From Geoglobus ahangari (GTDB lineage Archaea > Halobacteriota > Archaeoglobi > Archaeoglobales > Archaeoglobaceae), in NCBI RefSeq assembly GCF_001006045.1, contig NZ_CP011267.1, positions 1,302,001 to 1,366,000 of the forward strand: a stretch of DNA of 64,000 bases, read 5' to 3'. The translations under genes were made by a program, and so were the position numbers. The notes under the pieces are model-generated. The model saw only the letters and a program-made list of their open reading frames with translations. It did no database searches and had not been told where the DNA came from. This document shows positions 44,991 to 47,971 of the stretch, one piece after another; position 1 is the first letter of the stretch, and each line of letters begins with the position of its first letter.

Positions 44991-45003
44991 ATTATATATT
45001 TTA
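44991..45003. promoter_or_regulatory. Bidirectional TATA element between MFS gene and H/ACA RNA
   Basis: ATTATATATTTTA. On the plus strand its centre is about 23-25 nt before the predicted RNA 5' end (45019). On the minus strand it is about 30 nt before the MFS ATG at 44964. Both distances are typical for archaeal promoters. Confidence 0.6.
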
Positions 45004-45018
45004 CCGGCCAAATTTGTG

Positions 45019-45075
45019 TGCCCGCCGGCCATGCGTCCCCTGAGCGGTGATGGGGATTCCACAGAGCGGGCAACA
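45019..45075 (+). ncRNA. Candidate H/ACA guide RNA (predicted 16S rRNA pseudouridylation)
   Basis: Single hairpin. The lower stem TGCCCGC (45019-45025) pairs with GCGGGCA (45066-45072), followed at once by ACA (45073-45075). The upper stem GTCCCC (45035-45040) pairs with GGGGAT (45052-45057). The apical TGAGCGGTGAT (45041-45051) contains CUGA and GUGAUGG elements able to form an L7Ae-binding kink-loop. The internal pocket holds CGGCCATG (5' side, 45026-45033) and CCAC (3' side, 45059-45062). The pocket-to-ACA distance is 15 nt, the canonical value. The two guides complement archaeal 16S GUGG-UG-CAUGGCCG, predicting pseudouridine at the U equivalent to E. coli U1052. A TATA box lies upstream and T5 (45083-45087) follows. 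Confidence 0.75.
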
Positions 45076-45082
45076 ACCTCTC

Positions 45083-45087
45083 TTTTT
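45083..45087 (+). terminator. T-run terminator of the H/ACA RNA
   Basis: CTCTCTTTTTCG: five T residues 8 nt after the ACA box, suitable as an archaeal intrinsic terminator. The rest of the interval to 45188 contains only the promoter of the next gene (GTTTAAATT near 45147-45155). Confidence 0.5.
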
Positions 45088-45188: not shown

Positions 45189-45359
45189 ATGTCTGAGGAG
45201 AAAATTATAGAGGTTCTTAAAAATGCCGGAAAGCCTCTGAAGACAAAGGAGATAGCCGAGCTCGCGGGAATGGACAGCAAGGAGGTCTCGAAGATCATAT
45301 CAAAGCTGAAGAAGGAGGGCAAGATAACCAGCCCCAAGAGGTGCTACTACTCGGTCTGA
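45189..45359 (+). CDS. Small winged-helix DNA-binding protein
   Basis: 56 residues covering one helix-turn-helix domain: EEKIIEVLKNAGKPLKTKEIAELAGMDSKEVSKII then SKLKKEGKITSPKRCYYSV (partly quoted). The recognition helix is MDSKEVSKIISKLKKEG and the C-terminal wing is short. ATG 45189 follows GGTGATTG; longer in-frame starts upstream would run through the promoter. Probable transcriptional regulator; target unknown. It sits between the RNA gene and a membrane protein. Confidence 0.8.
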   Translation: MSEEKIIEVLKNAGKPLKTKEIAELAGMDSKEVSKIISKLKKEGKITSPKRCYYSV

Positions 45360-46099: not shown

Positions 46100-47971
46100 A
46101 TGAAACTGGAAGGAAAGGTTAGCCAGCACGAAAGCGTGCAGAGGATGTACGAGATCGTTTCTGGACAGGGCGTTTCGAACGTCATAGACAGGTTCAACGC
46201 GCAGGAGAAGGGAAGGTGCCCCTACTGCACACAGGGTCTGAGCTGTCAGCTCTGCAGCATGGGGCCGTGCAGAATTGGCCCGGGCAAGGAGTACGGAGCC
46301 TGTGGGATTGATGCGGCTGGAATGGTCACGAGGAACTTCGTCCACCTGAACATGCTTGGAACGGAGGCGTACACCTATCACGCGATTGAGGCCGCGAAAA
46401 CACTCAAGGCGACGGCCGAGGGCAAGACTCCATACGAGATAAAGGATGTTGAGAAGCTGAAGTGGTTCGCTCAGCAGCTCGGAATTGAAGGCGAGGACGT
46501 GAAGGAGCTCGCGATAAAGGTGGCGGACTTCGTTATAGCCGACCTGAGCTCACACGAGCCCAGCAAGATAGTGCTTGCCTTCACTCCGGAGAAGAGGAGG
46601 GAGGTATGGGAGAAGCTCGGCCTGATACCCAACGGAGTGTTCCAGGAGCTTCTGACAGTCGGCAGCTCGTCGATGACGAACGTTGACTCCAACTACGTGT
46701 CCCTTGCGATGAAGAGCATGAGGATGGGGATCGTAACCTGCCTCGGCGCGCAGCTCGTCATAGAGACGATTCAGGACATCCTGTTCGGCACACCGATGCC
46801 CCATGAGGCCTATGCAGACTTCGGCGTTGTTGATCCTGAGTACGTGAACATAGCAGTCAACGGCCACGAGCCCTTCGTCGGCATGGCCCTCATAAAGCTG
46901 GCCGAGAGGGAGGACATTCAGGAGAGGGCAAGGCAGGCCGGAGCCAAGGGCCTCAGAATCGTCGGGTTCATCGAGACAGGACAGGAGATCCTCCAGAGGG
47001 TCTCGAGCCCTGTCTTTGTAGGACTTGTAGGCAACTGGATAGTTCAGGAGTACGTGCTGGCGATGGGAGGGATCGACATCTTTGCTGCTGACATGAACTG
47101 CACCCTCCCGAGCCTCCCACTCTACCAGAAGTACGGTGTCAAGATCGTGCCTGTCAGCAAGCTCGTCAGGTTAAGGGGAATCAACGAGGGACTCGACTAC
47201 GAGCCGGAGAAGGCAGAGGAGATCGCGATGAAACTCATTAACATGGCCATAGAGAACTTCAAGGAGAGGAAGAAGAACGTCGAGCCGATAAGGGTCGAGA
47301 ACAAGAAGAAGATCACCGTCGGCTTCTCACCCGAAGCGATCCTAAAGGCCCTGAACAACGACCTGAACGTGCTGTTCGACGCGCTGAAGAGCGGCAGCAT
47401 CAAGGGAATCGCAGCGCTCGTCAGCTGCACCACCCTCAAGAACGGCCCGCACGACACGCACTCGGTCACAATAGCCAAGGAGCTGATCAAGAGGGACATA
47501 CTCGTCCTCTCGATGGGTTGCGGAAACGCGGCGATGCAGCAGGCTGGCTTGACGAGCATGGAGGCAGTTGACCTTGCGGGAGAGAACCTGAAGCAGGTCT
47601 GCAAGGCCCTCGGAATTCCGCCTGTGCTGAGCTTCGGAACCTGCACCGACACTGGAAGAGCAGCGTACCTGCTCAAGGTGATTGCCGAGGCTCTTGGAGT
47701 TGACATTCCCGATTTGCCGGTAGTTGCAACGGCTCCGGAGTACATGGAGCAGAAGGCCACAATCGACGCGATATTCGCAGTTGCCTACGGCCTGACCGTG
47801 CACGTCTCTCCGATACCGCCGATAACCGGCAGCGAGGATGCGGTCAGGCTCTTCACCGAGGACGTGGAGGAGCTCACGGGCGGTAAGGTGATGGTCGAGG
47901 AGGATCCGGTTAAGGCGGCTGAGAAGCTGGAGCAGGTCATCATCGAGAAGAGGAAGAAGCTCGGACTCTAA
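46100..47971 (+). CDS. cooS: CO dehydrogenase catalytic subunit homologue with Cys-to-Glu C-cluster change
   Basis: 623 residues, full CooS length. C40 and C43 (CPYC) suit a [2Fe-2S]-type D-cluster. C49, C52, C57 and C68 form the B-cluster pattern. The C-cluster ligands H256, C334, C443, C474 and C515 are present, with almost the same spacing as in Carboxydothermus CODH-II. The remaining ligand, Cys295 in the usual GICCTGNE, is replaced: here it reads GFIETGQE, giving E292. Classic Ni,Fe C-clusters need that cysteine. A Glu ligand recalls hybrid-cluster proteins and the CODH-V subgroup, which reduces hydroxylamine. No CooF, CooC or Cdh genes are nearby. It is therefore probably not a standard CO oxidiser. 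Confidence 0.9.
   Translation: MKLEGKVSQHESVQRMYEIVSGQGVSNVIDRFNAQEKGRCPYCTQGLSCQLCSMGPCRIGPGKEYGACGIDAAGMVTRNFVHLNMLGTEAYTYHAIEAAKTLKATAEGKTPYEIKDVEKLKWFAQQLGIEGEDVKELAIKVADFVIADLSSHEPSKIVLAFTPEKRREVWEKLGLIPNGVFQELLTVGSSSMTNVDSNYVSLAMKSMRMGIVTCLGAQLVIETIQDILFGTPMPHEAYADFGVVDPEYVNIAVNGHEPFVGMALIKLAEREDIQERARQAGAKGLRIVGFIETGQEILQRVSSPVFVGLVGNWIVQEYVLAMGGIDIFAADMNCTLPSLPLYQKYGVKIVPVSKLVRLRGINEGLDYEPEKAEEIAMKLINMAIENFKERKKNVEPIRVENKKKITVGFSPEAILKALNNDLNVLFDALKSGSIKGIAALVSCTTLKNGPHDTHSVTIAKELIKRDILVLSMGCGNAAMQQAGLTSMEAVDLAGENLKQVCKALGIPPVLSFGTCTDTGRAAYLLKVIAEALGVDIPDLPVVATAPEYMEQKATIDAIFAVAYGLTVHVSPIPPITGSEDAVRLFTEDVEELTGGKVMVEEDPVKAAEKLEQVIIEKRKKLGL

Follow-up and report, generated by a model that had tools for sequence, protein, structure and literature searches.

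A conserved single-hairpin H/ACA guide RNA of Geoglobus ahangari predicted to target U1004 of 16S rRNA

The intergenic locus and its hairpin

The window analyzed here is a stretch of 64,000 nucleotides from the genome of Geoglobus ahangari. At 45019-45075 on its plus strand it holds an intergenic hairpin, which is placed between a divergent MFS transporter gene on the minus strand and a small HTH gene on the plus strand. Directly 3' of the hairpin an ORF of 56 aa has a winged-helix-like appearance and an AT-rich upstream box of its own (45189-45359, plus strand); no relative of it adjoins the hairpin in other genomes. A large ORF at 46100-47971 (plus strand) looks by eye like the catalytic subunit of a carbon monoxide dehydrogenase (CooS-like). 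A tRNA search of the whole 64-kb window found none.

The layout of an archaeal H/ACA hairpin is complete at 45019-45075. Lower stem, two-stranded guide pocket, GA stem, kink-loop and ACA box had been proposed in a preliminary description of this DNA, and every one of these elements was found in the interval. From 5' to 3' the sequence order is UGCCCGC-CGGCCAUG-CGUCCCCUGA-GCG-GUGAUGGGGAUU-CCAC-AGA-GCGGGCA-ACA. The features of the locus are:

about 44992-45000, plus strand: TATA-like box TTATATATT, about 22-25 nt 5' of the hairpin
45019-45025, plus strand: 5' strand of the lower stem, UGCCCGC, pairing with 45066-45072; compensatory GC>AU and CG>UA changes in relatives
45026-45033, plus strand: 5' guide strand CGGCCAUG, complement of 16S CAUGGCCG; its GCCAUG is invariant among relatives
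45034-45043, plus strand: 5' side of the GA stem, CGUCCCCUGA, opposite GUGAUGGGGAUU
45047-45058, plus strand: 3' side of the GA stem, GUGAUGGGGAUU, opposite CGUCCCCUGA
45034-45058, plus strand: GA stem with kink-loop, CGUCCCC-UGA-GCG-GUGAU-GGGGAUU; CUGA/UGA near-invariant, C-G to U-A exchanges
45059-45062, plus strand: 3' guide strand CCAC, complement of 16S GUGG; invariant in 33 relatives
45066-45072, plus strand: 3' strand of the lower stem, GCGGGCA, pairing with 45019-45025; covariation in relatives
45073-45075, plus strand: ACA box directly 3' of the lower stem; invariant in 33 relatives
45083-45087, plus strand: T5 tract, a candidate terminator as read from the sequence

The GA stem comprises 10 stacked pairs if C.U, G.U, U.U, G.A and A.G are included. 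The kink-loop CUGA...UGA, a motif that is near-invariant among relatives, is a predicted L7Ae site. Between GA stem and ACA box there are 14 nt, or 15 nt if the last U, which faces a mismatched C, is counted as part of the pocket; the preliminary description had given 15 nt between pocket and ACA. Spacings of 14 or 15 nt from GA stem to ACA are described as productive in PMC4652768.

A TATA box about 24 nt upstream and a T5 tract downstream of the hairpin had also been announced. The box was located at about 44992-45000, a position conserved in most relatives. When 43 relatives were compared, an AT-rich peak was observed at -30 to -20 upstream of the guide RNA, and the best-scoring TATA-like boxes were mostly centered at -20 to -27. 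The T5 tract lies at 45083-45087; downstream T-runs are present in several relatives and are less regular and less conserved than the promoter box.

The minimum free energy of the hairpin was no better than that of shuffled sequence (z of -0.48), an outcome to be expected when the sequence is GC-rich and the pocket is wide. Taken by itself this value would also fit a chance fold of GC-rich DNA. Since the folding energy is uninformative here, the question whether the hairpin is more than chance depends on phylogeny.

Complementarity to 16S rRNA

The 16S rRNA gene of the host is located at G000:C1:397637-399128 on the minus strand and contains GAGAGGUGGUGCAUGGCCGCCGUC, the exact complement of the guide pocket. 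The preliminary description had proposed this 16S match, and the host sequence agrees with it at every pocket-paired base. In the target layout GUGG-UG-CAUGGCCG, CCAC pairs with GUGG and CGGCCAUG with CAUGGCCG, while the UG in between stays unpaired. In the 16S rRNA of 1492 nt, this unpaired U occupies position 1004. By alignment it corresponds to E. coli U1052 in helix 34, two residues before C1054 of the decoding site, just where the preliminary description had put the target uridine (near E. coli position 1052, beside C1054). Even when as many as 2 mismatches were allowed, the 16S locus gave no further match. The exact target is also present in all 8 other genomes with a full 16S that were examined. 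As the target stretch is invariant in the genomes examined, covariation between guide and target cannot be shown.

An RNA with the structure of an H/ACA guide might have its main target elsewhere, in an mRNA, a tRNA or 23S rRNA, with the 16S match being secondary. Targets outside the ribosome have been proposed for archaeal H/ACA RNAs (PMC4652768). Against this, the pairing with 16S places an unpaired U exactly at the active position, the pocket bases that are invariant throughout the class are those that pair with 16S, and S1004 of Archaeoglobus fulgidus is reported as a validated guided site. We therefore consider a different main target highly improbable, and take 16S U1004 as the very probable main target of the hairpin.

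Covariation and conservation of the hairpin

We compared the hairpin with its relatives at the level of DNA, of sequence pattern and of RNA structure. In a DNA search the hairpin turned up in 21 of 40 genomes, that of the host itself among them. A pattern scan returned 27 records. All come from archaea, and nearly all bear the label Archaeoglobales, Archaeoglobaceae or a genus of that family. A covariance model was built on 31 sequences including the copy in the window; since this copy belongs to the training set, its match of 80 bits (E of 1e-16, against 0.28 for the runner-up in the window) has to be read accordingly. With this model exactly one copy per genome was found in 51 of the 59 genomes of the class Archaeoglobi, covering 15 of 16 genera.

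Compensatory changes in relatives, named as a test in the preliminary description, were indeed observed. In the alignment of the relatives 6 pairs show changes on both sides, compared with 0-2 in controls in which the partners were slid, and 84.8% of the cells are paired, compared with 35-51% with slid partners. RNAalifold, run independently on the same alignment, recovered identical core helices. Variation across relatives is close to nil in GCCAUG and CCAC of the pocket, in the GA/UGA of the kink-loop and in the ACA box; the apical loop is variable. This conservation and covariation over about 16 genera rules out the chance fold raised by the folding energy, to which we assign a practically negligible probability.

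The position of the hairpin between divergent MFS and HTH genes, with a T5 tract following, would be compatible with another role, namely that of a terminator or of an mRNA leader of one of these neighbors. The neighboring genes differ in most relatives, however, while the hairpin persists: a relative of the MFS transporter is present at 5 of the 42 guide loci compared, and a relative of the small HTH gene at none of the 42. Moreover, conservation is centered on pocket, kink-loop and ACA rather than on the stem alone. With its supposed neighbor genes unconserved, a role as terminator or leader was rejected as highly improbable.

Orthology with Af190

One relative, which we take to be the type strain of A. 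fulgidus, carries a copy of the hairpin at 220966-221024 (L091). Its guide strands are identical, and its target is likewise residue 1004 of a 16S rRNA of 1492 nt. For A. fulgidus the guide Af190 (Afu-190) has been described, with 16S S1004 as its validated target (Tang et al. 2002, as reported in PMC4652768); in the classification given there it is assigned one motif and one target. The Geoglobus RNA is almost certainly the orthologue of Af190, because RNA class, single motif and target residue number are all shared, the latter in 16S molecules of equal length (1492 nt). The pair of guide and target is thus almost certainly not new, as it had been described in A. fulgidus as Af190 directing pseudouridine 1004 of 16S, a precedent that the preliminary description overlooked.

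Geoglobus copies differ from those of most relatives in some details. Their 5' guide duplex has 8 bp and -13.6 kcal/mol, whereas most relatives have 6 bp and -8.7 kcal/mol. The lower stem consists of 7 standard pairs, compared with 8 or so in most relatives, which have one or two more.

Among other known guides, the '10/5/9' fold family of Pyrococcus abyssi is defined by a 10-pair GA stem and a 5-nt 3' guide (PMC4652768). The Geoglobus hairpin resembles these guides in the 10-pair GA stem, the 3' guide of about 5 nt and the 14 nt to the ACA; it differs from them in target. The P. abyssi guide Pa19 is assigned to 16S S1017, which may or may not be the equivalent position. The Pyrococcus H/ACA families in Rfam, RF00058, RF00060, RF00064 and RF00065, belong to the same guide class, but neither they nor any other Rfam family matched above chance. 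When the window and the A. fulgidus orthologue were searched against Rfam 15 at gathering as well as permissive thresholds, only chance matches were obtained.

Occurrence in Archaeoglobi and beyond

In 8 of the 59 genomes of the class no credible copy was found even under laxer filters. Several of these genomes are incomplete drafts; in some the guide may have been lost, while in others an assembly gap or divergence may have caused it to be missed.

Outside the class, 2 divergent copies (G170 and G301) were detected among 58 genomes of one neighboring class, and no further copies among 295 genomes sampled across the phylum; the large searches used stricter Infernal filters, which could have let strongly diverged copies from other classes go unnoticed. 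The copies in G170 (L104) and G301 (L103) are divergent yet complete guides, and the other 56 searched genomes of that class were without one; transfer, contamination or retention from an ancestor may each account for this.

Two copies, at G007:C191:7769-7851 (L094) and G170:C56:32864-32938 (L092), have a longer apical extension in place of the short kink-loop. In G007 the extension forms an extra stem, AUCCCC/GGGGAU. These divergent G007 and G170 copies suggest a switch from kink-loop to kink-turn.

It is conceivable, and in our view rather doubtful, that the pseudouridine at the position equivalent to E. coli 1052 guided by this RNA family is largely special to Archaeoglobi, with rare occurrences in one neighboring class, and that its acquisition or retention served to adjust helix 34 of the decoding site at high temperature. 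If this were true, the copies in G170 and G301 would point to an older origin followed by loss, or to transfer between classes.

Proposed function and significance

The host genome encodes the proteins expected as partners of an H/ACA RNA, Cbf5, Nop10, Gar1 and two proteins of the L7Ae family. Structure, covariation, conservation, exact complementarity to the target and the genes of the partner proteins together form the basis for interpreting the hairpin as a guide RNA. We are highly confident that 45019-45075 encodes an archaeal H/ACA guide RNA with one hairpin, aimed at 16S U1004 and orthologous to Af190. That the finding is real, and that structure, target and mechanism had been correctly recognized in the preliminary description, is well supported.

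In the mechanism we propose, a stand-alone guide RNA of about 57-68 nt would be made from its own promoter. L7Ae would bind to the kink-loop, and Cbf5-Nop10-Gar1 would assemble on GA stem, pocket and ACA. GCCAUG, which in Geoglobus is part of CGGCCAUG, and CCAC would then pair with 16S GUGG-UG-CAUGGC(CG), so that U1004 would be left unpaired in the active site of Cbf5 and would be converted to pseudouridine.

While the general picture of archaeal pseudouridylation is unchanged, a guide that had been described experimentally in A. fulgidus is now extended to nearly all of the class Archaeoglobi. We also supply a covariation-supported model for this guide RNA, which is absent from Rfam 15. For many uncharacterized genomes this yields a clean prediction, a pseudouridine at 16S U1004, two residues away from C1054.
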